Shown piece after piece: positions 10,655-54,498 of a stretch of 64,000 nucleotides of DNA. Source of the DNA: Paracoccaceae bacterium (GTDB taxonomy: Bacteria > Pseudomonadota > Alphaproteobacteria > Rhodobacterales > Rhodobacteraceae); NCBI GenBank assembly GCA_022448925.1, contig JAKVCP010000008.1, positions 1 to 64,000 of the forward strand, written 5' to 3'. Position numbers and translations under genes: made by a program. Below the pieces are notes generated by a model. The model searched no databases and had not been told where the DNA came from. It saw only the letters and a list, made by a program, of their open reading frames with translations. Within the stretch, counting starts at the first letter, position 1. Every line of letters begins with the position of its first letter.

Positions 10655-10972
10655 TGCCTGCGCTCCAAATGCATCCCGCTCTCCTTATAGAAAACCTGTC
10701 GCTGCGACGCGAGAGGCTTTCGCGTTCAAAACACGCACTGCGCGACGGCGTGCCAAGGACGCAACGCCCCAAGGCCCCGCCCGCGGGACGAAACATGCCA
10801 TGACGGGCTTTCCTGCCAACGCGAAACGGCTGTCGCTGCAAAATCCGCAGTGGGATCACCATAGCCCGCGGTGCGCACCGGACAGATGCGCCCAGTGCAC
10901 AGACATCACCCGTCATAGGCGAGCGCGCGCGCCCCGCAAGCTGCCGAAAGCCGGTCCGACTGTGCCCAGAGG
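10655..10972. other. 318-nt intergenic stretch between rpiA and sdaA
   Basis: GC-rich DNA between the rpiA start and the sdaA stop. It must hold the rpiA promoter, but I see no convincing sigma-70 boxes, RNA gene or strong terminator. An open frame running across it on the plus strand is antisense to rpiA and is not supported. Confidence 0.5.
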
Positions 10973-14232: not shown

Positions 14233-14845
14233 GCAACATTCCGGGACGATCGAACGTCAGGCGCACAGGCCCTGTCACCCTGTTCGATGTGCCAATCTGA
14301 CCATCGGGTTGGAACGCAAGCCCATCTATCGGCCATTCAAGCCCGGTCGACGTGCCCCGAACCAGCGCGAGTGGATACAGTGAGAGCCGGGATCCAATCG
14401 GCAGGTCAAGCGATATGGCGGGAGGCGCAACAACAATGACGTCATGGGCACCAAGCAGGATGCAGCGCCTCGATGCATGGCGCACAAGAACCGTCAATGC
14501 GGCCATTGCGTGGTCCATACGCCGACCCTGAAATCCCATTCCAAGAATAAGAGCCGCGTCGATGTTACGAAGGCACTTGTCAAAATCGGTGCTGTTCTGT
14601 TCGGCAATATGATGCGCAACTCCCTGTGGCAGAGAAGACAACACTGCTGGATCAATCGAATCAAAGTCACCGACCACGGCATGCGGTGTGACGCCCAGAT
14701 CCTGCAATCGCATCGCCCCGCCATCCGCAGCGACCACCACATCACTGGTCTTCAATACCCTCAATAATTCGCGATTGTCGCAGTCTCCGCCACCAACCAA
14801 AAGCACTGTTCCTGAAGAGCGAACAATTGGGAATATATCGGACAT
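14150..14845 (-). CDS. Thiamine pyrophosphokinase
   Basis: This 231-residue enzyme transfers pyrophosphate from ATP to thiamine to give thiamine diphosphate. Motifs include ADGGAMRLQDLGVTPHAVVG, the catalytic GDFDSID, STDFDKCL, and the C-terminal LEWPIDGLAFQPDGQIGTSN with VTGPVRLTF. Length is usual for ThiN-type enzymes. The ATG at 14845 is chosen because GGTGATTG precedes it; ATGs further upstream (14857, 14872) give no extra family similarity. The 3' end runs antisense through the last 83 nt of the EamA transporter gene, an unusually deep convergent overlap. Confidence 0.9.
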   Translation of the reverse strand: MSDIFPIVRSSGTVLLVGGGDCDNRELLRVLKTSDVVVAADGGAMRLQDLGVTPHAVVGDFDSIDPAVLSSLPQGVAHHIAEQNSTDFDKCLRNIDAALILGMGFQGRRMDHAMAALTVLVRHASRRCILLGAHDVIVVAPPAISLDLPIGSRLSLYPLALVRGTSTGLEWPIDGLAFQPDGQIGTSNRVTGPVRLTFDRPGMLLILPPEAAPSLQSSLLDPATGSWPVHE

Positions 14846-14977
14846 TTCAATCACCATAGCGAAACAGATCACAATCTAGTCACGAAATGATACGCTCGGT
14901 GGCACAGATTCGGGCGCGTTTCGACGTGTCGGGTATGCTAAACACTAAGGTCTGTATAGTTGGAAGGTGAGTAGCAC

Positions 14978-39014: not shown

Positions 39015-40433
39015 ATGACAGAGTATTTCGACGAAATGTGGGGGCTGACCGGACAGACCCGGGCGCCCTACAAGAAATTCTCAGATTGGTTCGACGGTGA
39101 ACAGCCCGCACGCCTGCGCGCCAAACAACGCGAGGCAGAAGAGCTGTTTCGACTGACCGGCATCACCTTTAACGTATACGGCCGCGAAGAGGCGGAAGAG
39201 CGCTTGATCCCGTTCGACATCATTCCTCGGGTCATATCGGCGCGCGAATGGAAAAAGCTGTCAAAGGGCATTGACCAGCGTGTGCGCGCAATCAATGCCT
39301 TTCTGGATGACATTTATCACCGCCAAGAGATCATTCGCGCCGGACGTATCCCAGGCGAAATGATCGAAAAAAACGAAGCTTATCTGCCCCACATGATCGG
39401 CGTGCGCCCACCCGGCGGGATCTATACCCACATTGTCGGGATCGATCTGGTGCGGACCGACGAAGACACGTTCTATGTGCTGGAAGACAACGCCCGCACG
39501 CCGTCGGGTGTCAGCTACATGCTGGAAAACCGCGAAACCATGTTGCAAATGTTTCCCGAGCTGTTCAGCCAAACCCGGGTGCAGCCTGTTTCGGGCTATC
39601 CGCGTGCTCTGCAACAGTCGCTGGCAGCCTGCGCGCCCGAGGGCTGCAACGGCCCTCCTACCGTGGCGGTTCTGACCCCGGGGATCTACAACGCAGCCTA
39701 CTACGAACATTCCTTTCTTGCTGACAAAATGGGCGTGGAATTGGTCGAAGGTTCGGATCTTCGAATCGTCGACGGCCATGTCGCCATGCGCACAACACGG
39801 GGATATCAGCCGATTGATGTGCTGTACCGGCGCATTGACGACGATTTCCTTGATCCGCTGAACTTCAACCCTGACAGCATGCTGGGCGTGCCCGGCATCA
39901 TGGATGTCTATCGTGCCGGCCGGATCACAATTGCCAATGCGCCAGGCGGAGGCATTTCGGATGACAAGGCAATCTACAGCTACATGCCTGAGATCGTCGA
40001 GTTCTATACCGGGGAAAAGGCCATCCTTGAAAACGTCCCAACATGGCGCTGCAATGAACCTGACAGCTTGAAATATGTGCTCGACAACCTGAAGGATCTG
40101 GTCGTCAAAGAAGTGCATGGATCCGGTGGCTATGGGATGCTTATCGGTCCGACCTCGTCCAAAAAGGAATTGGCCGCATTTGAATCCAAGCTGCGGGCGC
40201 GCCCAAACAACTACATCGCGCAACCCACACTCAGCCTGTCGACGGTGCCGATCTTCACCAAGTCGGGGCTCGCGCCCCGCCATGTCGACCTGCGGCCTTA
40301 TGTTCTTGTCTCGCCTGATGGGGTGAACATCACCCCCGGAGGCCTGACGCGTGTTGCCTTGAAAAAGGGCTCGCTCGTGGTGAATTCGTCACAGGGTGGC
40401 GGCACCAAGGACACCTGGGTGCTGGAGGACTAG
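39015..40433 (+). CDS. Circularly permuted ATP-grasp ligase of the Anbu cluster
   Basis: This is a 472-residue protein of the circularly permuted ATP-grasp type 2 family (old DUF404/407). Motifs are FNVYGREEAEERLIPFDIIP, FLDDIYH, FYVLEDNARTPSGVSYMLEN, VLTPGIYNAAYYEH, EVHGSGGYGMLIGP and PYVLVSPDGVNITPGGLTRV. It lacks a signal peptide, so it acts in the cytoplasm, probably forming peptide-like amide bonds. It opens the four-gene Anbu cluster with alpha-E, transglutaminase-like and Anbu genes, at spacings of 4, 4 and 15 nt. The ATG at 39015 gives the family start; the 77 codons upstream are promoter DNA. Confidence 0.92.
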   Translation: MTEYFDEMWGLTGQTRAPYKKFSDWFDGEQPARLRAKQREAEELFRLTGITFNVYGREEAEERLIPFDIIPRVISAREWKKLSKGIDQRVRAINAFLDDIYHRQEIIRAGRIPGEMIEKNEAYLPHMIGVRPPGGIYTHIVGIDLVRTDEDTFYVLEDNARTPSGVSYMLENRETMLQMFPELFSQTRVQPVSGYPRALQQSLAACAPEGCNGPPTVAVLTPGIYNAAYYEHSFLADKMGVELVEGSDLRIVDGHVAMRTTRGYQPIDVLYRRIDDDFLDPLNFNPDSMLGVPGIMDVYRAGRITIANAPGGGISDDKAIYSYMPEIVEFYTGEKAILENVPTWRCNEPDSLKYVLDNLKDLVVKEVHGSGGYGMLIGPTSSKKELAAFESKLRARPNNYIAQPTLSLSTVPIFTKSGLAPRHVDLRPYVLVSPDGVNITPGGLTRVALKKGSLVVNSSQGGGTKDTWVLED

Positions 40434-40437
40434 GACG

Positions 40438-41379
40438 ATGCTTGGAAAAACCGCAGGCGGCCTGTTCTGGATGTCGCGTCAGCTGGAACGGTCGGAAAAC
40501 ACAGCACGGATGATCGAAACCGGACAGCGCATTGCTTTGACCCGTGGGTCTGACAGCGATGGCGAATGGGCCTCTATCTTGCGGACCGCCGCAGTAAGCG
40601 CCGGCCATGCCCAAAAATACGAAACCGCCACGCGTGAAAATGCCATCGATTGGATGCTGCGAGACAAGGACAATCCCTCCTCGGTCTTGTGCTCGGTCGA
40701 GACAGCACGCAACAACGCCCGGATGGTTCGCACGGCATTGACTCATGAAAGCTGGGAAGCCGTGAACGCAGCCTATCTGAAGATCAAGGACTTGCTGTCC
40801 CGTCGTGTCAGTGAACGCGACCTACCGCAGGTTCTGTCTGCCATCCGCCAGCGCAGTGCATTTGTGCGGGGGGCCATGCACGGAACGCTCTTGCGCAACG
40901 ACATCTACGACTTCATCCGCATCGGCACCTTTATGGAGCGCGCCGACAACACCGCACGCATCCTTGACGTCAAATACTATGTGCTGCTGCCCATGGCCTC
41001 GTCCGTGGGATCACGGTTGGACAACGTCCAATGGGAAACGATCCTGCGGTCCGTCAGTGCCGAGGGTGGCTATCGTATGACCCATGGCCACAAGATCCGG
41101 CCGCGTGAAATTGCGCAGTTCCTTTTGCTGGACAAACGGATGCCGCGCAGCCTGAACTTTTGCTGTTCGAAGATCCGGGCGAACCTGAGTTATCTGGCCA
41201 GTGACTACGGACAACAACTGGACAGTCATGCCCGCATAGATACCCTGTGTCGCCGCTTTATGTCCCATGACATCGACGCCATTTTTGACTACGGACTGCA
41301 CGAATATATTCAGGACTTTCTGGCCGCACTGGCAGACCTGTCTCGCCAGATCGAAATCGACTATCGCTTTTATGAGTGA
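40438..41379 (+). CDS. Alpha-E domain protein
   Basis: The 313-residue all-helical protein carries the alpha-E signature: GLFWMSRQLERSENTARMIE near the start and FIRIGTFMERADNTARILDV in the middle, with conserved Glu and Arg pairs. The alpha-E family is always found next to permuted ATP-grasp ligases and transglutaminases and is thought to work with them in making or trimming a peptide; the chemistry is not established. The gene starts 4 nt after the ATP-grasp stop. A longer frame beginning inside the previous gene is not used. Confidence 0.92.
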   Translation: MLGKTAGGLFWMSRQLERSENTARMIETGQRIALTRGSDSDGEWASILRTAAVSAGHAQKYETATRENAIDWMLRDKDNPSSVLCSVETARNNARMVRTALTHESWEAVNAAYLKIKDLLSRRVSERDLPQVLSAIRQRSAFVRGAMHGTLLRNDIYDFIRIGTFMERADNTARILDVKYYVLLPMASSVGSRLDNVQWETILRSVSAEGGYRMTHGHKIRPREIAQFLLLDKRMPRSLNFCCSKIRANLSYLASDYGQQLDSHARIDTLCRRFMSHDIDAIFDYGLHEYIQDFLAALADLSRQIEIDYRFYE

Positions 41380-41383
41380 CGCC

Positions 41384-42199
41384 ATGCTTTTGCGAATTTC
41401 CCACGTCACGAAATACAACTACGATCAGCCGGTTGACTACGGCTTGCAACAAGTGCGCCTGACACCCAAATCAACGCGCGCGCAGACTGTGCTGCAATGG
41501 TCGACAACCGTCGACGGTGGCAAACGAGAGCTTGGCTTTGAGGACCACAACCGCAATACCGTCGAACTGTTCAGCTTTGAACCCGGCGCGCAATCGTTGG
41601 TGGTGCGGGCCGAAGGCTTGGTGCAGTTGTCAAACACCCACGGCGTTGTGGGGCCTCATGAGGGCCATACCCCGTTGTGGCTATTCCAAAGAGACACGCC
41701 CCAAACCAAGGCAGGAAAAGCCTGCCGCGACCTGGCGAAACTGGCCACAGGGGAAACGGACCTTGGCCTGCTCCACGATCTCTCTGCCCGTGTGCTGGCG
41801 GCCGTACGCTATGAAACCGGTGCGACAAACAGCACATCCAGCGCCGAAGAGGTCTTGGCTGCCGGCAAGGGCGTGTGCCAGGACCATGCCCATGTTTTTA
41901 TCGCCTGCGCCCGCCACCTTGGGTTTCCGTCTCGCTATGTCTCGGGCTATCTGATGATGCAGGACAACGAAGAGCAGGAAGCAACACATGCCTGGGCCGA
42001 GGTCCATGTGGACGCGCTGGGTTGGGTTGGGTTCGATGTGCCCAATGAAATATCCCCGGATGAAAAATACGTTCGTGTCGCAACAGGGCTGGACTATTCC
42101 GAGGCAGCCCCTGTATCCGGGCACCTCTATGGCTCTACCGCTGAGAACCTGACCGTGTCCCTGACGGTGTCGTCGCAACAGCAGAGCCAGAGCCAGTAA
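41384..42199 (+). CDS. Transglutaminase-like Cys protease of the Anbu cluster
   Basis: The 271-residue product starts MLLRISHVTKYNYDQPVDYG, the usual N-terminus of bacterial transglutaminase-like proteins. The catalytic triad is visible: Cys in GKGVCQDHAHVFIACAR, His in ATHAWAEVHV, and Asp in GWVGFDVPN. There is no signal peptide. It may cleave or transfer the amide bonds made by the ATP-grasp partner. The start at 41384 has GAGTGA 5 nt upstream; an ATG at 41372 overlapping the alpha-E stop is the alternative. Confidence 0.93.
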   Translation: MLLRISHVTKYNYDQPVDYGLQQVRLTPKSTRAQTVLQWSTTVDGGKRELGFEDHNRNTVELFSFEPGAQSLVVRAEGLVQLSNTHGVVGPHEGHTPLWLFQRDTPQTKAGKACRDLAKLATGETDLGLLHDLSARVLAAVRYETGATNSTSSAEEVLAAGKGVCQDHAHVFIACARHLGFPSRYVSGYLMMQDNEEQEATHAWAEVHVDALGWVGFDVPNEISPDEKYVRVATGLDYSEAAPVSGHLYGSTAENLTVSLTVSSQQQSQSQ

Positions 42200-42214
42200 C
42201 GAAAGGGCAGTCTG

Positions 42215-42958
42215 GTGACCTATTGCGTGGGAATGCGGTTGGACCGCGGTCTGGTTTTCATGTCCGACACGCGGACAAATGCCGGTGTCGACAACGTGTC
42301 GACGTTCCGCAAAATGACCACATGGGAGCTTCCCGGAGAGCGGGTCATCACCCTGATGTCATCGGGCAATCTGGCAACGACACAGGCGGTTGTCAGCCTG
42401 CTTGAAGAACGCACCAAGGCGCCGGATGATCGCGATCCGTCGATTCTGCAGGTGCCATCAATGTTTCAGGCTGCCCAGCTTGTCTCGGGGCTTCTGCGCG
42501 AGGTGATCGACGGTCATTCCCGCAATGGCCAACAGGCGGATGCCGGCTTTGGCGCGACGCTGATCTTGGGCGGTCAGATTGCGGGCAGCGATCCCCGTTT
42601 GTTTCTGATCTATCCCGAGGGCAACTTTATCGAAGCTGGCGAGGACACGCCCTATTTCCAGATCGGCGAGACCAAATATGGCCGTCCCATTCTGGTTCGG
42701 GCCTATGATCCCTCAATGCATTTCGAAGACGCGGTAAAGCTGTTGTTGGTCAGCTTTGATTCAACGATCAAGGCGAACCTGTCAGTTGGCTTGCCCTTGG
42801 ATCTTCAAATCTATGAAGATGGCAGCTTTGTGCGTGGCACAGAGCGAAGGATCAGCAGAGACGACCCCTATTTCAACACGATTTCCACAGGTTGGGGCGA
42901 CGCGCTAAAACTGGCCTTCGACAGTTTGCCAGATTTTGAATTCGACCCTGACCGCTGA
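42215..42958 (+). CDS. Anbu, proteasome-related peptidase
   Basis: This 247-residue Ntn-hydrolase starts, from a GTG, with MTYCVGMRLDRGLVFMSDTR. Thr2 becomes the catalytic N-terminal nucleophile after Met removal, without a propeptide, and Asp18, Arg20 and Lys33 match the proteasome active site. FGATLILGGQIAG and LIYPEGNFIEA are family motifs. Anbu assembles into an open helical ring and is encoded with exactly these ATP-grasp, alpha-E and transglutaminase genes in many proteobacteria. Its substrate is unknown. GAAAGGG lies about 8 nt before the start. Confidence 0.95.
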   Translation: MTYCVGMRLDRGLVFMSDTRTNAGVDNVSTFRKMTTWELPGERVITLMSSGNLATTQAVVSLLEERTKAPDDRDPSILQVPSMFQAAQLVSGLLREVIDGHSRNGQQADAGFGATLILGGQIAGSDPRLFLIYPEGNFIEAGEDTPYFQIGETKYGRPILVRAYDPSMHFEDAVKLLLVSFDSTIKANLSVGLPLDLQIYEDGSFVRGTERRISRDDPYFNTISTGWGDALKLAFDSLPDFEFDPDR

Positions 42959-43198: not shown

Positions 43199-44872
43199 TC
43201 AAGGGGCCGGCTTTTGCCCCGTCGCTTGGTTCCGCAGATACCGTCCGTAGGACCAACCAGAGATCCCGCCCCAAGAGACCGCGCACCAGCGCATCCGATA
43301 GCCTTTTTCGACCTGGCAATCGGTCACATAGATACCATTGGCCGTCGGCGGCAGTTCTGCGACGATTTGATAGTCGGTTCCAGGACCAGAGCGTACGTTC
43401 AGGGCCTCATCCATCGGATGGTCGGTGACGCGGTAGTTTCCAGAAAACCGCGACCGGGCCGCAGAGCTGGACCTGTCGCTCAGATATCTGCCAAACGAGT
43501 ATCCCTTGATGCAGCCATAGACCACTTCACACCAACCAGAGCTTTGGCAGGAAACATGGCTGACACCTTGCGCATTGAACGGCAGTTCACCGATCGGGGC
43601 GTACTGTGTGCCCGGTCCGGCACGCACAAACAACGTGTCATTGGACTTGATCGACGTCACCACCCAAGGCCCGGTCTGTGATGGACACTGGCTTCGGATG
43701 CCAACCATGTCGGTCGCCACACCACTCTCTCCGCGGTTTACCTGAGGCGGTTTGGGTGGCTGCAGAGGCTGCTCGGGCGCGACAGGTTTTTCCAGCGCCG
43801 CGATCCGCGCTGCAGCGTCATCGACATATTGACCGTTTGAGAAGGCCAGCAGGTAAGTTCGGTAGGCGGTGGCCGTGTTCTTTTTGACTGTGATCTCCCA
43901 GAAATCACGGTCGGCGAAAGCATCCACCAGTTTTCGCGCATCCGGTGCTCGGGAATGGTTGGGATATCGGGCCAGAAAATCCTCTAGCGGGCCCCGTTCG
44001 CCACTTGCAACAGCGTCCAAGTATACGACAAGCGGGTCTTCGCGCACGACCGGAGCATCCTCCACCTTGGGGGCAACGGGCGCGACAGGCTGCTGCACGA
44101 CCGGCCCTGTGGCAGCCCCCGCCAGGTAGATCGCTTCGTCTGGCAGCTGCATGCGTTCAATCGGAACCTGGCGGTCATCTGTAAGTTCGCGCACTGTTGC
44201 GCGCACGCGACGGAACAGGCGGCCTATCTCAAGCCCAGGTTCATCCAATGACGCAAGCAGGGCCTCAGTATAGGGGCTGTGGAACCCGTCTCCGTCATCT
44301 GCTGTGCTGCCCTCTTGGGCGGCGAAGCTGACGACAATCCCACTTTCTCCTTCGACAGAGACCGGGGCCAACCCGCGTGACAGTGACCGTGTCCCATTGT
44401 TGCGCACCATCGCCGCACTGAAAGGATTATCCCGGCACGCGTCCAGCATGACGATCCCCAGCTTGGATGCCAACCGCACGGTCGACAAAGCCTGCTCCAA
44501 CGAGATCGTTTCGAATTGCGCCGTAGCCTCTGAGCGCATCATGGCATCAACGGGGATCAGGTAATTCTGACCATTCATCTCAATTCCGTGACCCGCATAG
44601 AAAATCGCGGCAATGTCAGCCCGAAGCGCCTTTTCGGTGAACATTCCCAAGGCGATGCGAAATGCTTGCCCTGTCAGGTTCTCATGGTGTTCGACCTCAA
44701 ATCCAAGCCCGCGCAGTTTTTCCGCCACGGCACGCGCATCATTGGCAGGATTGCGAAGCGCGGTCGCGTTCTGGTAGGCCGAGTTTCCGATCACCAGGGC
44801 AACACGCACTTCTGCCACCACAGAGGTGCACCAAAGAAAGGCCATAACAAAAGCCAAAGTGATAAACCGCAT
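43199..44872 (-). CDS. Secreted caspase-like protease with two SH3-like domains
   Basis: The 557-residue product has a signal peptide (1-20). The C14 caspase-like domain (22-250) has catalytic His95 in IFYAGHGIE and Cys146 in VMLDACRDNPF. A helical repeat module (about 280-360) has DFLARYPNHSRAPDARKL and AYRTYLLAFSNGQYV, also present in the next protease upstream. Two bacterial SH3-like domains follow (about 403-467 and 475-547), each with VR-GPGT-Y and ending GRYL, which usually bind peptidoglycan. AAGGAGG lies 6 nt before the ATG. It is the last gene of the six-gene redox-caspase operon, 23 nt after its neighbour. Confidence 0.9.
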   Translation of the reverse strand: MRFITLAFVMAFLWCTSVVAEVRVALVIGNSAYQNATALRNPANDARAVAEKLRGLGFEVEHHENLTGQAFRIALGMFTEKALRADIAAIFYAGHGIEMNGQNYLIPVDAMMRSEATAQFETISLEQALSTVRLASKLGIVMLDACRDNPFSAAMVRNNGTRSLSRGLAPVSVEGESGIVVSFAAQEGSTADDGDGFHSPYTEALLASLDEPGLEIGRLFRRVRATVRELTDDRQVPIERMQLPDEAIYLAGAATGPVVQQPVAPVAPKVEDAPVVREDPLVVYLDAVASGERGPLEDFLARYPNHSRAPDARKLVDAFADRDFWEITVKKNTATAYRTYLLAFSNGQYVDDAAARIAALEKPVAPEQPLQPPKPPQVNRGESGVATDMVGIRSQCPSQTGPWVVTSIKSNDTLFVRAGPGTQYAPIGELPFNAQGVSHVSCQSSGWCEVVYGCIKGYSFGRYLSDRSSSAARSRFSGNYRVTDHPMDEALNVRSGPGTDYQIVAELPPTANGIYVTDCQVEKGYRMRWCAVSWGGISGWSYGRYLRNQATGQKPAP

Positions 44873-44895
44873 GGGCCCCTCCTTCTTCGTCGAGC

Positions 44896-46689
44896 CTAGG
44901 GCTGGAGTGCGTTCACCCGCAGCGCTGTCATTGACGCAATGCACAGCGCGATGGCTGCGCCCGCCCGCTGGCATCGCGCATTGCGCTCTTTCAACCAACG
45001 GCGCTGATCCTCAACCGTTACCCTGCCTCGATTTTTGGCGTTTTTGTATGACTTTAGCAAGAATTGATCTTGCTGGGCCAAGGTGTCATCGCCACAAAGC
45101 GCCAATTCGATCGCAGTCGTCGCTTTGGCACAATTGAACGAGGGTTTGATACGACCACTGAAGCGACCGCTGTCAAGTGCCGCGATCCGGACACTGATCA
45201 CGGTTTGCAGACAACGCTTTAGCCGATCGCCCTGATTTTCGCAGATCGCGTCGCGCAGTTTCAGCCAGTCCCGCTGGTTCGATACTGTCACCCAGCCTGC
45301 CGCCGATGCACGTTCAAAAGATGCGCTCAATCTTTGATCCAGCTGCGCCAAAGTCCTGCTGTCGCAAAGTGCGTGCTCAACCAGAGTGCGCGCCTTGCGG
45401 CAGTCAAATGAGGGCGAGAAATCAGATTCTTCCTGCACCTCTGTATCTGGATCGGGCCGGTCTATCGGTTCTGGCTCTGGCTTTTGGTCGGGCTCGGGTT
45501 GCGGGATAGGATCTGGCTTTATCACGGGGTCAGGCTTGGTGGCAGGGTCTGGCTTGGTCGCTGGGTCAGCAATGACAACCACCCGCTGTCGAAGCGCTGC
45601 AATCCTTTGTGTCGCTTCACTAACATATTGGCCCGAAGAAAAGGCAATCATGTAGCGGCGATAGGCGGCGATTGTATTCTGCTCCACGGTTTTGGCCCAA
45701 AACGCATCATCTTCATAGGATTCCAGCAAGGCCCGCGCGTCCGCCGCCTTTGCATGATCGGGATAGCGCCTCAGGAAATCTGCCAACAGAGCGGGCTCTC
45801 CGGAAGTGACAGCCGCGAGAAAAAGAACATAGGGGTCTTCGTTAAGCGCATCTGGTTCTGGGGCTTGTTCGGGATCGGGCTTTGGGTCGGGTTCGATCTT
45901 GGCTTGAGGCGCCAGAAAAATCGCTCGGTCCGGCAGTTGCATCCGCTCGATCGGAACTTGACGGTCGTTTGTCGCAGCCCTGACCTTGGCACGGACTTTG
46001 CGGAAAATGCGCCCGACTTCCAGTCCGGGTTCGTCGATCACGTCAAGTACAGCCTGAGTGTATGGACTGTGCGCGCCCACACCGTCATCGGCCGTACGCC
46101 CCTCTTGGGCTGCAAAGCTGACAACAAGGCCACTTTCACCTTCGATCGAAACAGGTGCAAGTCCGCGCGTGATCGCCCGCGTGCCGCTGTTGCGGACCAT
46201 GGTGGCCCCAAAGGGGTTGTCACGGCAGGCATCCAGCATGACGATGCCAAGAGCACTTGCCTGGCGCACGGCGGACAGAACGTCCTCCAGGGCGATGGTT
46301 TCAAACTTTGCCGTCGCCTCAGAGCTCATAGAGGCGTCGGTCGGGATCAAGTAATTCTTTCCACTCAGCTCGATACCGTGTCCGGCATAATAAAACAGCG
46401 CGATGTCGGCGCGCAGCGACTTTTCGGTGAACTGTCCCAGGGCAACGCGGAAATCCTGCCCGGCCAGATCCGCTTCCAACGCAACGTCGAACCCCAGACC
46501 CCGGAGTTTTTCAGCAACAGCACCCGCATCATTTCCAGGATTGGCCAACTGTGCGGCATTGTCATACTTTGCGTTACCAACGACCAAGGCAACGCGCGTT
46601 TCGGCCGAAGCAGAAAGCGCGAAAGATGCGGCAAACAAGGCCGCCTGCAGTCTTAAGATCCAACGGGTCACAGGCGATGGTCCCCCCAC
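44896..46689 (-). CDS. Secreted caspase-like protease with two LprI-like domains
   Basis: This is a 597-residue protein with a signal peptide (LQAALFAASFALSASA). The C14 domain has His104 in YYAGHGIELSG and Cys155 in VMLDACRDNPF. It is followed by the same helical repeat module as in the downstream protease (DFLRRYPDHAKAADARAL, AYRRYMIAFSSGQYV) and a Pro-Asp-Lys repeat linker (KPDPATKPDPVIKPDPI). Two C-terminal LprI/DUF1311-like domains (about 440-515 and 520-597) have FDCRKARTLVEHALC, FNCAKATTAIELALC and paired Cys. LprI-type domains inhibit lysozyme in known cases. The GTG at 46689 has AAGGTG upstream; a GTG at 46671 is an alternative start. Confidence 0.88.
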   Translation of the reverse strand: MGGPSPVTRWILRLQAALFAASFALSASAETRVALVVGNAKYDNAAQLANPGNDAGAVAEKLRGLGFDVALEADLAGQDFRVALGQFTEKSLRADIALFYYAGHGIELSGKNYLIPTDASMSSEATAKFETIALEDVLSAVRQASALGIVMLDACRDNPFGATMVRNSGTRAITRGLAPVSIEGESGLVVSFAAQEGRTADDGVGAHSPYTQAVLDVIDEPGLEVGRIFRKVRAKVRAATNDRQVPIERMQLPDRAIFLAPQAKIEPDPKPDPEQAPEPDALNEDPYVLFLAAVTSGEPALLADFLRRYPDHAKAADARALLESYEDDAFWAKTVEQNTIAAYRRYMIAFSSGQYVSEATQRIAALRQRVVVIADPATKPDPATKPDPVIKPDPIPQPEPDQKPEPEPIDRPDPDTEVQEESDFSPSFDCRKARTLVEHALCDSRTLAQLDQRLSASFERASAAGWVTVSNQRDWLKLRDAICENQGDRLKRCLQTVISVRIAALDSGRFSGRIKPSFNCAKATTAIELALCGDDTLAQQDQFLLKSYKNAKNRGRVTVEDQRRWLKERNARCQRAGAAIALCIASMTALRVNALQP

Positions 46690-46708
46690 TTACCCAGTCA
46701 CCTTAGGA

Positions 46709-48277
46709 TCATCTGGCCTTTGTATAAAGCCCCACGACCCCAACCTGACAGGATCGTGGTTGCAAAGCGACTTTCAAGGTCTCGTTCCGGGGAACAGTTC
46801 TGCCATTGAAAGCCTGCATCGTCTTTCGAAGGTCCAAGGGGGGGCGCTTGCAGAAAACCGCAACGATCTGGTCGGCCCCAGTGGGTGCGACAACGTCAAA
46901 GCGCATGCTGATCCCAAGCATATCAACCGGATCATCACGCGCCCCGGGCGCTGGATGGAGGTACTGCAAAGTGCCATCACTTGCGATATTGAAAAGCGTC
47001 AGAAAACGCATGTCTTCTGCTGGTGGTTTGAAGACATAGCCGACCCGCTCGCCAATGGGCACCACCTTGTTTTCGTGCAAAGCTTCAACAATAACCGGGG
47101 GAATGCCCGGCTTTTTGGCCTTGAGCACGTCATCAAGCGCTCGCGCCCGCGAGATCAGACGCTGGGCGCCTTTGTCGATCGTGGTGATCTGATCACCTGT
47201 ATGGTTAAACACATCCCATTTTCCGCCTGTATTCTCAAACACAAGCGACGGGCTGGTCGTAACCTCTACGTAGGACCGGCGATCCAGTCCGGGCGGTTTG
47301 GCCCCTTTGAACTTGACCGCAACGGCCTGCTTTTCCTGGGGTTTGGGTGGCACCAAAGGCAATAATGACAACAGCGCCTGGCTGTCACCCCGGGGCAGGA
47401 TGCGTGGCTGCTGATTTTGGTTCATATGCGTGAAGACGCGATCCTGAAGGTACTCTGCGATTTCAGAGCGGGACACCGATTTGTCGCCGTCCAGATCCGC
47501 CGCTCCGGTCAGCGCCTCAGCAAAATACCACGACAACGCGCCATGTGCTTTGCCGTCAAAGCGTGTCTCGGTCACCAGACGGTCTTCGGATGCTGTCGCA
47601 AGAATTTGCGTCACATGTGGAAGGTCGTCCTTGCCGGTGTCGCCCTCGCCTGCCTTGATCTCGCCCTCTATGGGCTCAATCGGTATGTCCCAGATGCCCC
47701 CGTTGCGGGTCAGTCCCATGTTTTCACGGTTGACCTGACGGGTCAGACCGGCCGAGTGACAGCTGTCCATCACCCAGATCACCCGAAACGCGGAAGCCTT
47801 GACCAACATATCCCGCAATTGATCGTCTGATAGGCGCCCAATCCGTGGGTTGCGCGGATCGAATTCATGAAACATGATCGTTTCATCAAGTCCATCTGTA
47901 ATCTCATCGAAGGGTTCGTCGATCTCGCGCTCTTGAGCGCCATGGCCCGAGAAACTGACAATGATGGTATCGCTGGACTTTGCCTTGGCCAGCATCTCGT
48001 TCCAACCCTTCTGAAAGTTTTCCAACGTTGCGCGATCATCCAGAAGAATGCGATGATCCGGCAAATCAATACCAGTCTGACGCATTGCGCCGGCAATGCG
48101 CGTGGCATCATTTACGGCGCCTTCCAGATCAGACAACTCGCCCGGTGGGGCGGGAAACTTCTGAAAGTGCAAGTAATCATCTACACCAACCACCATGCCC
48201 CATTGCTTGGCTATCGCGGGCAACCCCGCGAGGGCCAAACATACAGCCATCGCAGCCGTTTTACTGATGAAGGACAA
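46709..48277 (-). CDS. Secreted caspase-like protease with EF-hand-like loop
   Basis: The 522-residue protein has a signal peptide (AVCLALAGLPAIA). Its metacaspase-like C14 domain has His112 in VSFSGHGAQEREID and Cys173 in WVMDSCHSAGLTR. An EF-hand-type loop, DLDGDKSVSRSE (261-272), follows the catalytic core, suggesting calcium control as in metacaspases. The C-terminal half resembles a DUF4384-like region (YVEVTTSPSLVFENTGG, PIGERVGYVF). The TTG at 48277 is chosen because GGAGGG lies 7 nt upstream and the next ATG (48250) would cut the signal peptide; the gene then overlaps the OmpA-type gene by 17 nt. Confidence 0.87.
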   Translation of the reverse strand: MSFISKTAAMAVCLALAGLPAIAKQWGMVVGVDDYLHFQKFPAPPGELSDLEGAVNDATRIAGAMRQTGIDLPDHRILLDDRATLENFQKGWNEMLAKAKSSDTIIVSFSGHGAQEREIDEPFDEITDGLDETIMFHEFDPRNPRIGRLSDDQLRDMLVKASAFRVIWVMDSCHSAGLTRQVNRENMGLTRNGGIWDIPIEPIEGEIKAGEGDTGKDDLPHVTQILATASEDRLVTETRFDGKAHGALSWYFAEALTGAADLDGDKSVSRSEIAEYLQDRVFTHMNQNQQPRILPRGDSQALLSLLPLVPPKPQEKQAVAVKFKGAKPPGLDRRSYVEVTTSPSLVFENTGGKWDVFNHTGDQITTIDKGAQRLISRARALDDVLKAKKPGIPPVIVEALHENKVVPIGERVGYVFKPPAEDMRFLTLFNIASDGTLQYLHPAPGARDDPVDMLGISMRFDVVAPTGADQIVAVFCKRPPLDLRKTMQAFNGRTVPRNETLKVALQPRSCQVGVVGLYTKAR

Positions 48278-49439
48278 GTTCAACCCTCCGCGCAATCGCC
48301 CGACGTTCGTCATCTGAATAGGCGGCGATGTCAGTGTATTGTGGCGGGTGACGCTCACCCACGCCCTCTACGTAGATCTGCGCATAAACGCCCTTTGTCT
48401 GCAGATGCTTTCGTACCGATGCCGCGCGTTTGACCGACAAATCCAGGTTGTACGCGTCTGAGCCCTTTTCGTCGGTATGGCCGACAAGTGTCAGGGACTT
48501 AACCCCCGACTTGATCAGGAAGTCCGCGACCGTATCCGCCGCCTGAAGACCGACAGGGTCAAGGTCAGAGCTGTCAAAACCAAACCGGATTGGAAGATAA
48601 ACTATCTTGGCCGCTTCGGCAGCCTTGTCGGCCACGACGTAGTCTTCTTTGGGTTTGCTCTCCTGATAGACGGGCTCTTGCTTGATCAGGGGCTCATAGT
48701 AGTCCGGCTCCGGTGCGATCGGCTGGACATAGTCTATCTTATTGTCCTTCAGGCTGTCTTTGTAGACGGGCTCTGGCTCTACATACGCGATGTCATCATA
48801 GCCCGTGTCTTTTTGGTCATCCACATAGGTCGTATCCTGTTTGACCTCTTTGATCTGGGGTTTGGTACCAACAGCTTCGATGGCAATGCCGCGCATCGCG
48901 GATTTCAAGACGCCCGAAGCACCACCCGATCTGGTCACGATCGGTTCGAGGGATCCCGCCAACATCAGGTTTTCCTGGCCCAAGCGTGTGATTCGGTCCG
49001 CAATCGGTACAAGAGCCGGATTGGGTTTGGTAATTGCCGGGTCTGTGATGGTGTCCAGCGCCGCGTTGTACAGCTTGGCCGCTTCCAGGCGGTCCCCCCG
49101 TTTCACGGCGATTTCGGCCCTGGTCACCTGAACCGCCCAATGTAGCCCGGGGGCGTCTTTCAACATCTCATCGGCGCCATCGATGTCACCGGCGGCAAAC
49201 AGCTGCTGAGCCATCCGCGCCAGAATACCTGAGGCATCCGACAAAGCCCGCACGACCGTAGGTTCAGAGCACGTGGAATTTGCGCGAAAGGTTTCGACCG
49301 CTTGCAGGATGGTTTCTTTGGACCCTGAATCGTAGGAACTTTTCAGGACGCCAAGTTCGCCAGCGCAATCCGCCGCCGCAGCGGTGGGGAGGGCCAATAC
49401 GGCCCCCGCCATAACTGTGGAGAGTAGAGTTCGTTTCAT
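48261..49439 (-). CDS. OmpA-family peptidoglycan-binding protein
   Basis: This 392-residue protein has a signal peptide (TVMAGAVLALPTAAAA). A helical N-terminal part (25-170) contains Cys residues and TPR-like repeats. An acidic, Tyr/Pro-rich linker follows (YVEPEPVYKDSLKDNKIDYV). The C-terminal OmpA domain (about 275-392) has RFGFDSSDLDPVG, LTLVGHTDEKGSDAYNLDLS and KRAASVRKHL; its Asp and Arg contact diaminopimelate in relatives. There is no beta-barrel, so it anchors something to the cell wall. AGGAGG precedes the ATG by 8 nt. It sits in the operon between the cytochrome and the first caspase. Confidence 0.9.
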   Translation of the reverse strand: MKRTLLSTVMAGAVLALPTAAAADCAGELGVLKSSYDSGSKETILQAVETFRANSTCSEPTVVRALSDASGILARMAQQLFAAGDIDGADEMLKDAPGLHWAVQVTRAEIAVKRGDRLEAAKLYNAALDTITDPAITKPNPALVPIADRITRLGQENLMLAGSLEPIVTRSGGASGVLKSAMRGIAIEAVGTKPQIKEVKQDTTYVDDQKDTGYDDIAYVEPEPVYKDSLKDNKIDYVQPIAPEPDYYEPLIKQEPVYQESKPKEDYVVADKAAEAAKIVYLPIRFGFDSSDLDPVGLQAADTVADFLIKSGVKSLTLVGHTDEKGSDAYNLDLSVKRAASVRKHLQTKGVYAQIYVEGVGERHPPQYTDIAAYSDDERRAIARRVELVLHQ

Positions 49440-49462
49440 TGTTTCATCCTCCTCTCGTGCGA

Positions 49463-52400
49463 TCAATCAAAGACCGTGAAGGTGACATGGTTGGTCGCGG
49501 ACTGACCTGCGTCAACCTGAACCTTTTTGGCCGCCTCGATGGTGATACCACGGGTCAATGGCTGGCCGCGGGACTTGGCGTAATCAAGCACCTCGTCTGC
49601 CTTCATGCCCTTGTCGGCCAATCCACCCTCACGGCAGAACGCCAGCATGGTTTCCCCTTCGCCCGGCTCGTCAAAGCGGATCTGAAGGCCCGATCCTGCA
49701 TAGGGAATGCGCCGGGTTTCACCCGCCTCGAGGAACCGAGGCCCAAGGATTTCCGATGGCATTTCCACGATCTCCTTGCTCTCCTCGACGTAGAACACCT
49801 GCAGCTCGCACCGCTTGTTTGCACTGACGTCAAACTCAAGCAGATCATCGACGTAAACATCGGTGTAGGGTACGCTTAGGGCCAGCTTCAGACGATCTTG
49901 GCGCGGCTTGTAGGCCGGGTCCTTTGCGATCGGCTTGATTGTTGCTGGTTGATAAGGCTCTTCGCGTTTCTTCACGCTGGCCTTGATCGCCACGTCCACC
50001 TTGGCCTCGTAGTCGTTCAACGCCACGCCGCGCTGCACGGTGTAGATGCTTTCCGACGGAATGTATGGCTCTAGGTCCGTCAGACGCGGCAGCAGTGAGG
50101 CGTAGTAAGTTTCCACCTCAGAGCGGTGAATCTTGCCGCCCGCATCGAGACGCGACAGCCAATCAAGGGCAACCACCGTCAGGACCGGGTCGCCCAGACG
50201 ACGGGCCCGCGACCGGAAGGTGTCTTCGTCCATGAAAAACTCACGCGCCAGCTCTTCGACGTCAAGGCTCTCGAAGTGCTTGTCGGCCAGATAGGTCACG
50301 ATCTCACCGCCTCCGACGCTTTCGGGGGCCCGAAGACTGGTCAGCTTGCCAGAAACGCCAGTTTCGACTGCGTTTAACATCTGCAAACGGCTCAGGAAGA
50401 ACTGGCTGTCTTTCTCGTAGTAGTCAGACAGCGTGTCGTTGTCGACGTACATCGTCAACAGCACTTCCAGTTCGTCCCTCGAAAACATCGAGGACGACAG
50501 CAGCGTGTCACGCAGTTGGTCTTTCTTGCGGATCATGCCGTCATGGTGGCAGTCAAAGCAGGACCGCGCATTCACGACCTCTACACCCTTGCCGATCGGC
50601 TTGGTCCGGAAGGACACAATCGATGCCGGGCCAACCAGCAGCCGCTCGCCCAGGTTTGTCGAGAGGTAGTAGCCCTGCAGACCATTGGGAAGTGAAAAGA
50701 TCATTTCACCGCCATCATGCTCAAACGGAGCAGTGCCAGACGCGGTCCGCCCGATTTCACGCGGTCCATCCGGATGCAAGGTCAGCGACTGTTCACCGCT
50801 GTCGCCTGCAAAGTCATAGGACTTCCAGTAGTAACCGCCAAACGGCAGGTCGAAACGTTCCAGCATGCGGTTGTGATCTGACACGCCCGAATTGCCCGGC
50901 AGCATAGCTGCACGCACGGCACGGCGCGACAGGATTTCACGATCCACATCAATGCCCATCCGGTACTCAAGGTCACGAATGTCATCCGTCAAGCCCAGGA
51001 ACATGTCGTAGTAAGGTGATTCAGAGGCAAACCGGACAAACCAGTCGGCGCGCATCATTGGAACCACAGCACCGGTGGCCTGCGCCACAACCGACAGCAG
51101 CGGATCGCTGTTGGGGTCAACCGCATAGGGATACACTTTGGCCAGATCTTCCCAAGCCTCACGGGTAAAGCTGGCATCTTTTGCGCCCTGGGTGAAGACA
51201 CCTGTAGAGATCGCGTCCCAATCGTCCTCGGTCCAGTTGTAGTCGCGGATATCGATACGAACCAGCGCGCCTTCGGTGGCCGGGATCGGCGTCACGGGAA
51301 CGACCCGCGGACCATTCGAGATCGAGTTGATGAACTTGTTCAAAGCCGAATGCAGATAGTGCGTCGGATTGCGCAGCGCGCCGTCTTGATTGCAATCCAC
51401 CTTGGCAAGCGTCGTGCGGCCAAAGCTGAGATAGCGCATATAGGACCGATCAAAGGCGTCTACCTTGTTGATGTCCGACACCATCGCCAACACAATGGCT
51501 TCGCGCGAACCACCGGCAAAACGCGGCATTGGCACGTCGATCACGGGACGTTGCGGTGCCGCGGATTGCTGAACAACCGCAGGCTGAAGAGCGGCCGCAG
51601 CGGGTTGCTTGCGTGCCTCGCCCTCGGCAACAATCCAGCGGCGCAACACATCAAGCTCTTCTGCATTCGGCTTTTTGCCGGTCGGCATCCGGTTGTTTAC
51701 AATCGATTCATACAATGGAGATCCATCCGGATCGCCAGGAATCATGATGGCCTTGTCAAACGGCAGATCGTCGATCGAGCCGGTGTTAAACACCCCAGAG
51801 TAGGTCTTGCCTGGACCATGGCAGGCCCGGCAGTAGGTTTCGATGAACTGATCAGCCTCTTTTTTCAAAGCCGGATCCACAGGTTTGGGACCAGAGGCAA
51901 CTGCGTTTTGAACAACCGCGGGGGCCACTTCGACCTCAAGTGGGGCATTCTTTGCTTCGCAATGCGCGTCAACTTTGGACATCAACGCCGGTGCACCGGT
52001 CAGGTCGTCGATCGCGGCAGCCACGGCCAAGGCTGTTTCGCCCGGATTCTTACCGCCGGGAAGAACCGGATCCTTGCCAACGATTTCTTCGATCTCTTTT
52101 TCCGTTGTTTTCTTCGCCACCACGCCTCGGAATGGCGTTGGATCGATCGCCTTGCCAGTCAGGTAGGCATACATCGCGACACGATCATCTATCGACAGGC
52201 TGGACGTCGACCGGGCGATCCGTCGCATCGAAGCGCTGACCATCGGGTTGCCGTTCAGCTTTTTGGATTCGGCCATTGCGCCGATGATGAAGGCCTCTGG
52301 GCCAAACTGCTCCAACCTGCTTCCTGCAATCGAAGGCGAATAATCCCCCAGCAAGCCGGTTTCGCCCTGATAGGCGCGCGTTGTGTCCAGTTTGTAGGTA

Positions 52401-53011
52401 AAGCCGAAACCGGTGTCGCGGGGGGTGTGGCATTCCGCGCAGTGGCCTACGGCCTCAACCAGATATTGTCCTCGCTCAAGCTGTGCGTCGTTCTTGGCTG
52501 GCAGTGGCTCGCGCCCTGTTGACCAAAGATCAAGGATCGTCTGGCTGAGATAACTGATGTTATGCTCCTTGGACTCCGCATCGCTTTGCGGCAGGGTGGC
52601 AATGTAGCCGCGCAGGTCAAGAACGTCCTCGGGCTTCATCCGGGCGTAGGACGGATAGGGAAACACCGCACCGAAATACGTGCGCCCGTCCGGTGATTGA
52701 CCTTTCAGCACAGCATTCAGAAAGTCCGCGTTGGACCATTGACCCAGACCTGCCGTCGGGTGCGACGTGATATTGGGTGCGTAAAGCTCTCCGAATTTGG
52801 TGCGAATTTCGCGTCCGCCGGCCAGGATGTCGTCAGCCCCGTCAACCGCGTGACAGGTGCCGCATCCCGCAGCAGCAAAAATGATCTGCCCGTTGCTGAC
52901 ATCGGGCTGGTAGTCGCTGTAGGCCCCTTGCGCGAACAAATCCTGCGCGACCGCAGGCGCGCCAAGACTCAGAGCGACAACTGAGGTGCCGACCAAATAC
53001 AGGTTCCTCAT
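49463..53011 (-). CDS. Large secreted tetraheme cytochrome c protein
   Basis: This 1182-residue protein has a signal peptide (VVALSLGAPAVAQ). Four c-type heme sites are visible: CGTCH (50-54), CAECH (191-195), CRACH (394-398) and CFDCH (818-822). The first two lie in class I cytochrome domains like those of alcohol-dehydrogenase cytochrome subunits (GAVFPYPSYARMKPEDVLDL). The third is a planctomycete-type cytochrome domain (ITPGDPDGS-like MIPGDPDGSPLYESIVNNRM). The C-terminal 350 residues are not recognised. The product must be periplasmic. It lies 13 nt after the flavocytochrome-like gene, its likely electron partner. Confidence 0.9.
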   Translation of the reverse strand: MRNLYLVGTSVVALSLGAPAVAQDLFAQGAYSDYQPDVSNGQIIFAAAGCGTCHAVDGADDILAGGREIRTKFGELYAPNITSHPTAGLGQWSNADFLNAVLKGQSPDGRTYFGAVFPYPSYARMKPEDVLDLRGYIATLPQSDAESKEHNISYLSQTILDLWSTGREPLPAKNDAQLERGQYLVEAVGHCAECHTPRDTGFGFTYKLDTTRAYQGETGLLGDYSPSIAGSRLEQFGPEAFIIGAMAESKKLNGNPMVSASMRRIARSTSSLSIDDRVAMYAYLTGKAIDPTPFRGVVAKKTTEKEIEEIVGKDPVLPGGKNPGETALAVAAAIDDLTGAPALMSKVDAHCEAKNAPLEVEVAPAVVQNAVASGPKPVDPALKKEADQFIETYCRACHGPGKTYSGVFNTGSIDDLPFDKAIMIPGDPDGSPLYESIVNNRMPTGKKPNAEELDVLRRWIVAEGEARKQPAAAALQPAVVQQSAAPQRPVIDVPMPRFAGGSREAIVLAMVSDINKVDAFDRSYMRYLSFGRTTLAKVDCNQDGALRNPTHYLHSALNKFINSISNGPRVVPVTPIPATEGALVRIDIRDYNWTEDDWDAISTGVFTQGAKDASFTREAWEDLAKVYPYAVDPNSDPLLSVVAQATGAVVPMMRADWFVRFASESPYYDMFLGLTDDIRDLEYRMGIDVDREILSRRAVRAAMLPGNSGVSDHNRMLERFDLPFGGYYWKSYDFAGDSGEQSLTLHPDGPREIGRTASGTAPFEHDGGEMIFSLPNGLQGYYLSTNLGERLLVGPASIVSFRTKPIGKGVEVVNARSCFDCHHDGMIRKKDQLRDTLLSSSMFSRDELEVLLTMYVDNDTLSDYYEKDSQFFLSRLQMLNAVETGVSGKLTSLRAPESVGGGEIVTYLADKHFESLDVEELAREFFMDEDTFRSRARRLGDPVLTVVALDWLSRLDAGGKIHRSEVETYYASLLPRLTDLEPYIPSESIYTVQRGVALNDYEAKVDVAIKASVKKREEPYQPATIKPIAKDPAYKPRQDRLKLALSVPYTDVYVDDLLEFDVSANKRCELQVFYVEESKEIVEMPSEILGPRFLEAGETRRIPYAGSGLQIRFDEPGEGETMLAFCREGGLADKGMKADEVLDYAKSRGQPLTRGITIEAAKKVQVDAGQSATNHVTFTVFD

Positions 53012-53024
53012 TTCTCCAATCCTT

Positions 53025-54317
53025 TCATCTGAATTCAAACTCTTCAAAGTGCACGCTTTTCGGTCGGTTCCCCGAGGCCTTGAGATCCTTGAGGACCGCC
53101 TCACGCATGGGCGCCGGTCCGCAGAACCACAATCCCGCATCCTTCATTTCAAAGGGAACAAGCTCAGTAAGCTTTTCTGCCGAAAAACGGCCCTCCTCCT
53201 TGCTGACGTAAAGCCGGAACTTGAAGCCCGGACACCGAGCCTCGGCTGCGCGGAACCGGTCGAGGCCGACAGCCTCTTCCGGTTTGTTCACGCAGTAAAC
53301 CATCTGAAAACGCCGCGTGTCCTCAGCCGTTAGGCTGTCAGCAAAGGTCAGGAACGGAGTGACCCCGATCCCGCCCGCAAGCCAGACCTGACGATCCGGA
53401 CCCCGACGGTAATCAAACGCGCCATAACCGCCTTCGACGGTCATCTTGTCACCGACCTCTACCAAGTCGCGTACACGACGTGTGTAATCCCCAAGGCCTC
53501 GTATGGAAAACTGGATCGAGCCATCCTCGCCAAAGCGCGACACGGTAAAGGGATGCGGCTCACGCAGTCCCCGGCGAGCGATCGAGATTACGGCAAACCT
53601 GCCCGGCTTGATCTTGCGGAAACTCCGCACGGGCTCCGCGTCGATGATCGTCGCGGCGGGGTGCTTTTCCACCTTCGAAATGATGTAGGCCCGTGGGCGC
53701 ATTGGCGCCAGAAATTGCGTGTAGACAAAGCTGACTGCGCCCACGATGGCCCAAAAATTCAGGTACTGTGCTGCAAGGGCATTCATATTGAACGGCACTT
53801 TGACAAACAGCTGGTGGAAAACGATGCCGAGGAACAGCACACCAAGCGCGCGATGCGACCATCGCCACCAGTGATAGGGGATCAGATCCCCGCGAAAACG
53901 CTTGAGCCCCGGAATTTTCGAACCAAACGGGATTTTTTTCAGCCAGCTTGCAAGCAGCAAGACCAGCAGTGGAATAAAGACCAGTTCTGCCACGTCCACA
54001 GAGGTCTTGGCCAGCCCCGTTGCCGCGATCTGGCCTTCGATATCCAGCATGCCGACATTTTTGTGAAACAGGATCAAAGGCAGCACCAGAATGCCAATCC
54101 ACTTGTGGCTGACATAAAGGCGATCCAACCCGCCGAACCAACGCTCGACATACTTCGGACGCGTGGCAAGGAACAAGTTCAGGCCCATCAGGGTAAACGC
54201 CGAAGCGCCAGCCGACAAGGCAACCAGGCTTTGCAGGCTTGTGTTTCCGCCGCCCAAGAAAATCAGAGCTGTTGGAACAAGTACACCAAGCAGGAGTGGG
54301 ACTGGCAGACCAAGCAT
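53025..54317 (-). CDS. Ferric-reductase-like transmembrane flavoprotein
   Basis: The 430-residue product has about six membrane helices with His pairs (LYVSHKWIGILVLPLILFHK; WWRWSHRALGVLFLGIVFHQ) suited to two b hemes, as in the NOX/ferric reductase family. A ferredoxin-reductase-like domain follows, with the FAD motif EPHPFTVSRF, the NAD(P) site WLAGGIGVTPFLTF and WFCGPAPMREAV. It could pass electrons from NAD(P)H across the membrane. The ATG at 54317 is preferred over a TTG at 54341 that has no ribosome site. It is the first gene of the six-gene operon. Confidence 0.9.
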   Translation of the reverse strand: MLGLPVPLLLGVLVPTALIFLGGGNTSLQSLVALSAGASAFTLMGLNLFLATRPKYVERWFGGLDRLYVSHKWIGILVLPLILFHKNVGMLDIEGQIAATGLAKTSVDVAELVFIPLLVLLLASWLKKIPFGSKIPGLKRFRGDLIPYHWWRWSHRALGVLFLGIVFHQLFVKVPFNMNALAAQYLNFWAIVGAVSFVYTQFLAPMRPRAYIISKVEKHPAATIIDAEPVRSFRKIKPGRFAVISIARRGLREPHPFTVSRFGEDGSIQFSIRGLGDYTRRVRDLVEVGDKMTVEGGYGAFDYRRGPDRQVWLAGGIGVTPFLTFADSLTAEDTRRFQMVYCVNKPEEAVGLDRFRAAEARCPGFKFRLYVSKEEGRFSAEKLTELVPFEMKDAGLWFCGPAPMREAVLKDLKASGNRPKSVHFEEFEFR

Positions 54318-54445
54318 GATCGTTTCGCTACCCGATATCAAAAATGTTTAAGTCTCTCTGTTAAGGCAGCCTACCCATTCGCAAAACAAAAACAAGGTTG
54401 GAGACGCACAGGCAGGCACCCATCTCGGGGTCAAAATGACGCGAA

Positions 54446-54457
54446 GTCACTTGTGAC
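54446..54457. promoter_or_regulatory. Inverted repeat upstream of the redox-caspase operon
   Basis: GTCAC-TT-GTGAC lies 129 nt before the first gene of the operon and 42 nt past the glpD stop, in the only intergenic space that can hold the operon promoter. A regulator-binding dyad is plausible; no matching regulator gene is nearby. Confidence 0.3.
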
Positions 54458-54498
54458 GCCAGTCAGGTATACCCGCCTTCACTGCTGCAACGCCGGGC

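Follow-up and report, generated by a model that had tools for sequence, protein, structure and literature searches.

Bacterial members of the NOX family can be recognized by motif filters that were set out in a 2017 mBio paper and allow at most seven transmembrane helices, with H69/H83 and H129/H142 as the haem ligands in SpNOX (PMC5676040). In detergent, SpNOX reduces cytochrome c in a partly superoxide-independent manner, and direct reduction by flavin adenine dinucleotide (FAD) is allowed for as well (PMC5676040). Caspase homologues are abundant in Alphaproteobacteria, and Asplund-Samuelsson et al. (2012) found OmpA in 14 of the 217 metacaspase operons of their survey and described a Rhizobium operon for a protease and a protease inhibitor; the word "cytochrome" is absent from the main text of that survey (PMC3501461). 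In addition, the protomitochondrial origins of apoptosis have been discussed (Klim et al., 2018; PMC5982838). The present analysis concerns a six-gene operon in the genome of a Paracoccaceae bacterium of the family Rhodobacteraceae, carried on a 64,000-nucleotide stretch that was analysed as a whole and is called the window (assembly GCA_022448925.1, contig JAKVCP010000008.1, positions 1 to 64,000). The operon encodes a NOX-like transmembrane flavocytochrome, a secreted tetrahaem cytochrome c, an OmpA-domain protein and three caspases, and this six-gene arrangement is a real conserved unit. No description of a module joining a trans-membrane electron chain to secreted proteases was present among the matches listed in open-access papers in PMC, and as far as the searchable open-access literature shows, the module has been undescribed so far.

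That the operon is a conserved unit is seen from its recurrence in other genomes. All six genes stand in the same order at locus L039 (genome G001, of the same genus; contig JAUHVR010000008.1), at L042 (G056, a one-contig genome of another genus, 46-63% identity) and at L093 (G481, 49-64% identity), with full-length relatives of the cytochrome at 90% identity in G001 and 63% in G056. Among the compared loci, L039 alone also has the flanking genes of the window. Neorhizobium petrolearium, from another order of Alphaproteobacteria, carries the genes for a caspase, an OmpA protein, a NOX-like protein and the cytochrome consecutively on a plasmid, in this rearranged order; among 72,556 plasmid records, no other matched the cytochrome. 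An assembly artefact was ruled out, since further genomes, including one assembled as a single contig, have the same six-gene order.

A contig scan of genomes returned one full-length cytochrome relative and two loci matching the N-terminal part only. The first search with the full-length cytochrome matched 57 of 101 genomes, a number due to the N-terminal dihaem region, to which most of the matches are confined; once the dihaem-only matches were dropped, six genomes were kept, three with full-length matches (including the window's) and three that matched by the later part. The distribution was then taken from a profile of the C-terminal two thirds of the cytochrome (A2), with a strong match defined as E 5e-119 or better. 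Of 394 genomes from the window's family, 23 had a strong match (any match in 28, the remaining five being weak), as did 2 of 385 genomes of a class sample (3 more weak) and 3 of 398 of a phylum sample (2 more weak); the samples overlap, and the strong matches of the class and phylum samples all fall within the window's family. Neighbourhoods were read for all 23 strong-match genomes and for the Neorhizobium plasmid, giving 24 loci.

These loci fall into two versions, as each of nine long cytochromes carries four CXXCH motifs and each of 15 short ones carries two. The long version (the window, L039, L042, L047, L093, L095, L096, L097 and L098) is found in eight genomes of the window's family and on the Neorhizobium plasmid. 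At all nine of these loci there is a NOX-like gene and between one (L047) and five (L042) caspase genes, so the linkage on which the original prediction, made from the sequence alone, had staked its proposal was present at every locus found with the four-haem cytochrome. The search that it suggested, for the six families in this order, finds them so at L039, L042 and L093; across the nine long loci, gene orders differ. An OmpA protein was recognized at six of the nine. The short version is found in 15 genomes of the window's family, and none of the 15 loci has a caspase or NOX-like gene; instead, BLAST found at every one an OmpA protein adjoining the cytochrome and, no more than three genes away, a trypsin-type protease. 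Thus, the caspase part of the predicted module stands at the long loci but does not extend to all holders of the cytochrome core, since 15 of the 23 family genomes with this core use a trypsin-type protease there. The cytochrome core is the element that is kept, and what is swapped is the class of protease.

The NOX-like gene and the fused N-terminal dihaem region also travel together, being jointly present at 9/9 long and 0/15 short loci, and the identity of NOX-like proteins to the window protein declines in step with that of the cytochromes across loci. In a tree of the shared cytochrome part, the 15 short forms group with support of 100/100 and eight long forms with 94/98, while L098 has a very long branch and an uncertain placement. 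At L092, a separate dihaem gene with 36% identity to the long-form N-terminus ends 22 nt upstream of the short cytochrome. Given this stand-alone gene, the long cytochrome looks like a fusion of a dihaem gene with the short form, judging from these sequences.

Caspase genes are likewise concentrated near the operon in several genomes. In the eight family genomes that have the long form, between 2 and 20 caspase matches per genome were counted by PF00656; these are lower bounds because caspase 1 of G481, seen at its locus, was missed by this profile. Matches at the operon or within about 24 kb of it account for 2/2 in G574, 2/3 in G624 and 7/7 in G056. For all eight family genomes to have at least one caspase within 20 kb, the estimated chance is a product of about 10^-12, a rough figure that assumes random gene placement and independent genomes, neither of which holds fully. 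In G056 (L131, L132; G056:C1:962501-1005500), the seven matches together span about 24 kb, in and around which transposase-like genes were seen by eye; this suggests that the cluster is a genomic island. Furthermore, a second cluster of four caspase matches is present in each of the two genomes of the window's genus (G000:C94:11701-20101 and G001:C31:91525-100100).

Within the window, the layout given by the original prediction was reproduced when the gaps between the six minus-strand genes were recomputed from starts and stops (13, 23, -17, 19 and 23 nt; Table 1). Pfam matches above curated cut-offs and four CXXCH motifs uphold its naming of a NOX-like protein, a four-haem cytochrome, an OmpA protein and three C14 caspases, and the signal peptides that it placed on five of the six proteins agree with a crude hydrophobicity scan (not SignalP). 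It had further described the three caspases as distinct: caspase 1 is indeed a separate, metacaspase-like type, but caspases 2 and 3 are close paralogues that share about 60-66% identity across their N-terminal two thirds in the cross-locus comparison.

Table 1. Genes of the six-gene operon and the stretch upstream of it, in window positions.
Feature	Position	Strand	Basis
NOX-like transmembrane flavocytochrome, 430 aa	53025..54317	-	Pfam, SpNOX similarity, His ligands
Secreted tetrahaem cytochrome c, 1182 aa	49463..53011	-	Pfam, CXXCH count, PDB profile match, model
OmpA-domain protein, 392 aa, probable peptidoglycan anchor	48261..49439	-	PF00691
Caspase 1, metacaspase-like C14, TTG start, sub-threshold C-terminal DUF4384	46709..48277	-	Pfam, dyad GHG/DSCH
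Caspase 2, C14 with C-terminal LprI domain	44896..46689	-	Pfam, dyad GHG/DACR
Caspase 3, C14 with two SH3_3 stretches	43199..44872	-	Pfam, dyad GHG/DACR
Intergenic stretch, possible promoter region	54318..54498	-	Between the upstream gene, presumably glpD-like (stop 54499), and the first operon gene

The intergenic stretch is partially conserved in comparison to L039. A consensus scan of it gave no promoter-like site, a scan for promoters and terminators gave nothing beyond shuffled sequences, and no shared inverted repeat was found in ten upstream regions of long loci. On the other side, the operon is adjoined by opposite-strand Alpha-E, transglutaminase-like and Proteasome-family genes, which are adjacent to one another (40396-42958, plus strand) and kept in L039; the Proteasome-family gene is presumably Anbu-like.

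The NOX-like protein of the window has the Pfam domains Ferric_reduct, FAD_binding_8 and NAD_binding_1 above cut-offs, and its best solved relative is SpNOX (8qt6, E 1.4e-37). Its haem-b histidines, H71/H85 and H155/H168, are invariant at all nine long loci, and the FAD motif HPFT (HPFTV) and the NAD(P)H motif GGIGVTPF (GIGVTP) are present. By its residues, then, the protein passes the His-spacing, FAD and NAD(P)H motif filters for bacterial NOX. A NOX-like profile matched 83 of 394 family genomes at E 1e-30, and relatives outside the clade scored 494 bits and below versus 575 and above inside, a gap that is inflated because the profile includes the top-scoring sequences. In the flanks (about 1.5 kb) of 15 loci of distant NOX-like genes (L107-L121), there is no cytochrome, caspase, OmpA or trypsin-type neighbour. 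At 13 of these loci (L107-L118, L120), as judged by eye, a response-regulator-like gene is found close to the gene for the distant NOX-like protein, together with genes for small proteins that look secreted.

The cytochrome runs from the N-terminal dihaem region through a third haem domain and a central region with the fourth haem to a C-terminal DUF4384 that is sub-threshold in the window protein. Cytochrom_C was matched above its Pfam cut-off, and an export signal was seen in three long cytochromes by the crude hydrophobicity scan only. In PDB profile comparisons, the dihaem region resembles the cytochrome subunits of fructose and alcohol dehydrogenases (7w2j, E 6.2e-30). The identity of the whole protein as an ordinary quinoprotein dehydrogenase subunit was considered and rejected, as only the N-terminal dihaem region fits and no dehydrogenase gene was recognized among the neighbours examined. 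In short cytochromes, DUF4384 was above cut-off in all three scanned (L043, L092 and L094).

The central region is less readily placed. In the window protein it has no Pfam match at E 0.001, its haem-4 part has none at E 10, and a family search with the haem-4 region gave no family for the window member and two chance-level families among 24 members. A model of the central region (504 residues, predicted local distance difference test score (pLDDT) 84, from 23 sequences) had no Foldseek match in the PDB at E up to 0.001 (best 0.6), which is not proof of a new fold. The best PDB profile matches of the haem-4 region, none with E below 0.04, were to haem sites of nitrite reductase, and VIA-align of the central-region model gave cytochrome c'-beta in its top four rows (Z 4.9-4.2; next row 2.9), a match of 106 aligned residues that spans the fourth haem motif and that, with Z < 8, may reflect a common arrangement. 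A profile comparison of haem-4 with 11 P460 domains gave 37%, and a second such comparison 23%, a signal that is unspecific because control pairs reached 35% and 39% from the CXXCH region alone; other control pairs gave 8% and 58%. Cytochrome c'-beta is therefore a possible relative of the haem-4 region on structural grounds.

All three window caspases have a C14 domain (132.4, 129.2 and 47.5 bits versus a cut-off of 21.4), and the catalytic motifs GHG or GHA and D[SA]C were found as text motifs, which is not a check of structure, in 23/23 caspases of the nine long loci. In the PDB, caspase 1 matches metacaspase-1 (4f6o, E 8.3e-9). Weak DUF4384 matches were found in 5/5 scanned members of the caspase 1 type, including the relative from Rhizobium, and EF-hand matches in caspase 1 were sub-significant (best E 0.02). 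Among 14 caspases scanned with Pfam, six carry SH3_3, LprI or PG_binding_1 above cut-off, one of these six also having Lectin_C, while two carry Sel1 repeats and two an NADase-translocation-type domain. The latter domain (NADase_transloc, F5/8 type C) is C-terminal in caspases at L095 (6017-7507) and L097 (11484-13028).

The trypsin-type proteins of the short loci had Trypsin_2 above cut-off in 3/3 scanned (of 15), and these three carry SH3_3, Sel1 or SPOR domains. Their His and Ser text motifs were found in four of five examined and not in L094, where an amidase gene sits between the protease and the cytochrome. The OmpA protein of the window matches PF00691 with 51.8 bits against a cut-off of 27.2, and its D323 and R338, which we take to be the Asp and Arg that bind peptidoglycan, are invariant in 10/10 aligned (of 21 OmpA proteins).

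In combination, these observations are tentatively read as an envelope module in which cell-wall proteolysis is coupled to electron transfer across the membrane, with protease activity set by the haem protein; this reading is possible, at a confidence well short of even. The NOX-like protein would draw electrons from cytosolic NAD(P)H and deliver them to the periplasmic side of the membrane by way of FAD and two b haems, as expected from its family. The secreted tetrahaem cytochrome may then accept them at its N-terminal dihaem region; of the two versions found at the 24 loci, the one with the NOX-like gene is alone in having this region fused. The shared part of the cytochrome, with the third and fourth haems, would be the sensing or catalytic part, and its state would reach the secreted caspases, or in the short version the trypsin-type protease, by contact or through a product. 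The OmpA protein, where present, would serve as a peptidoglycan anchor. The output would be wall protease activity set by haem redox or ligand state, probably responding to oxidative or nitrosative envelope damage. The linkage of the genes, the other protease class in the sister systems, the joint occurrence of the fused dihaem region and the NOX-like gene, and the intact catalytic and cofactor motifs are observed directly; that electrons pass from the NOX-like protein to the cytochrome, and that the cytochrome controls the proteases, are steps that we infer. Control is favored to the degree stated because the cytochrome core is constant and the proteases vary, in the manner of a sensor or scaffold with exchangeable effectors. 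That a periplasmic, NOX-fed cytochrome c switches caspases, or trypsin-type proteases in the sister systems, on or off at the alphaproteobacterial wall is a bolder statement and seems rather improbable. As a possible lead toward nitrosative stress, the list of genes that change in a Bradyrhizobium diazoefficiens nnrR mutant includes the caspase family gene bll3611 (PMC6710368).

Several observations weigh against control of the proteases by the cytochrome. Co-location alone does not show the cytochrome acting on the proteases. In the window's genome, 13 of 16 caspase matches lie away from the operon, the 15 family genomes with a trypsin-type protease and no caspase at the locus show that the two halves are separable, and relatives of caspase 1 occur in 127 plasmid records compared with one for the cytochrome core. 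As the caspase and cytochrome halves also occur apart, the general term used here is secreted protease rather than caspase. The unit is also not uniform, with caspase 1 present at only four of nine long loci, no OmpA protein recognized near L095, L097 or L098, and the NOX-like gene of L098 on the opposite strand. As for the parts that would sense and bind, ligand binding by haem-4 is backed by one weak structural match (cytochrome c'-beta), and the profile test for it failed its controls. DUF4384, which would tie cytochrome and caspase directly if both had it, stays below its cut-off of 27 bits in the window's cytochrome (22 bits) and caspase 1 (14.8 bits), and of the three long cytochromes scanned, those of L047 and L098 show none at E 0.001. 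Finally, wall-related or Sel1 domains above cut-off are missing from six of the 14 scanned caspases.

Much of the pattern could also be accounted for by the proteases processing the cytochrome. Here, the cytochrome would be a secreted redox enzyme or conduit in its own right, and the proteases would only mature, remodel or turn over the cytochrome and its anchor, with no signal from haem to protease. Either a caspase or a trypsin-type protease serves at these loci, as would be expected of a processing enzyme, and the cytochrome core is the constant part across the 24 loci. However, up to five caspases at one locus (L042), with varied accessory domains, exceed what processing needs, even though L047 has one, and this explanation is regarded as doubtful.

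An alternative with the logic of MsrPQ is envelope quality control, in which periplasmic electrons repair or detoxify while the proteases clear damage in parallel, without a switch. A related membrane protein of E. coli feeds electrons to periplasmic MsrP (PMC5676040), and proteases bound to the wall fit a role in clearance. Nevertheless, no repair enzyme was recognized and the central region of the cytochrome is without family assignment, so that quality control appears unlikely.

Caspases are effectors in known bacterial conflict systems. The operon could act in regulated death or defence, with the redox pair making or sensing oxidants under attack by phages, predators or competitors and the caspases destroying the envelope. 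The patchy spread (23/394), the single plasmid copy and the transposase-like genes around the G056 cluster would suit such a mobile module. On the other hand, no defence gene or sensor NTPase was recognized among the scanned neighbours, and PADLOC matches were partial and generic only: the 453-position caspase model was matched from positions 2 or 5 to 130 alone, ZorB was partially matched by the OmpA protein, the cytochrome and the NOX-like protein had no match, and there was no full-length match to the anti-phage caspase models. Moreover, the proteases here look secreted, while the defence caspases known to us are cytosolic, and a role in death or defence is judged decidedly unlikely. Co-transfer of the redox pair and the caspase cluster on one mobile segment without a functional link draws on the Neorhizobium plasmid location and the transposase-like genes seen by eye around the G056 cluster, but is very improbable given that the genes are kept at 9/9 loci down to 29-35% identity despite differing order and flanks, with tight gaps and a different protease class in the sister systems.

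If a haem protein does control these proteases, the operon would represent a new type of signalling at the envelope, and the long-standing question of why cytochrome c and caspases began to cooperate could be put to the test in bacteria that can be cultured. With the cytochrome core constant, the replacement of caspase by a trypsin-type protease offers a natural experiment that separates sensor from effector. The operon also gives a context for the alphaproteobacterial caspase homologues, which are mostly without known function.

In comparison to described systems, the NOX-like protein resembles SpNOX over most of the chain, in the spacing of the four haem-b histidines and in the FAD and NAD(P)H motifs, but is encoded here together with a likely periplasmic tetrahaem acceptor and proteases. 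The proposed module shares with MsrPQ the trans-membrane delivery of electrons to a dedicated periplasmic partner; that partner is here a multihaem cytochrome rather than a molybdoenzyme, and the proteases and the wall anchor lie within the unit. The cytochrome c subunit of quinoprotein alcohol and fructose dehydrogenases is similar to the N-terminal dihaem region, while the regions of the third and fourth haems differ and no dehydrogenase subunit was recognized at the locus. The Rhizobium protease and inhibitor type of operon, seen in Rhizobium leguminosarum plasmid pSK02 (L129), has a relative of caspase 1 beside DUF4384, trypsin-like and serpin genes and differs in having no annotated electron-transfer gene. 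There, positions 6097-15845 hold in a row genes for a DUF4384 protein with an OmpA-like end, the caspase-1 relative, the trypsin-like protease, a serpin family protein and a Ser/Thr kinase. Lastly, the operon resembles mitochondrial apoptosis, with its cytochrome c, caspases, HtrA/Omi and AIF flavoproteins, in that one envelope unit of Alphaproteobacteria combines a flavoprotein, a cytochrome c and either a caspase or a trypsin-type protease. The cytochrome here is multihaem and there is no apoptosome part, and the likeness is an analogy drawn from the genes rather than a case for homology of the circuits. Within that analogy, a circuit of NOX-like protein, cytochrome and caspase, placed in the bacterial counterpart of the mitochondrial intermembrane space, could have arrived independently at the logic of mitochondrial apoptosis or, conceivably, be a relic that is related to it.

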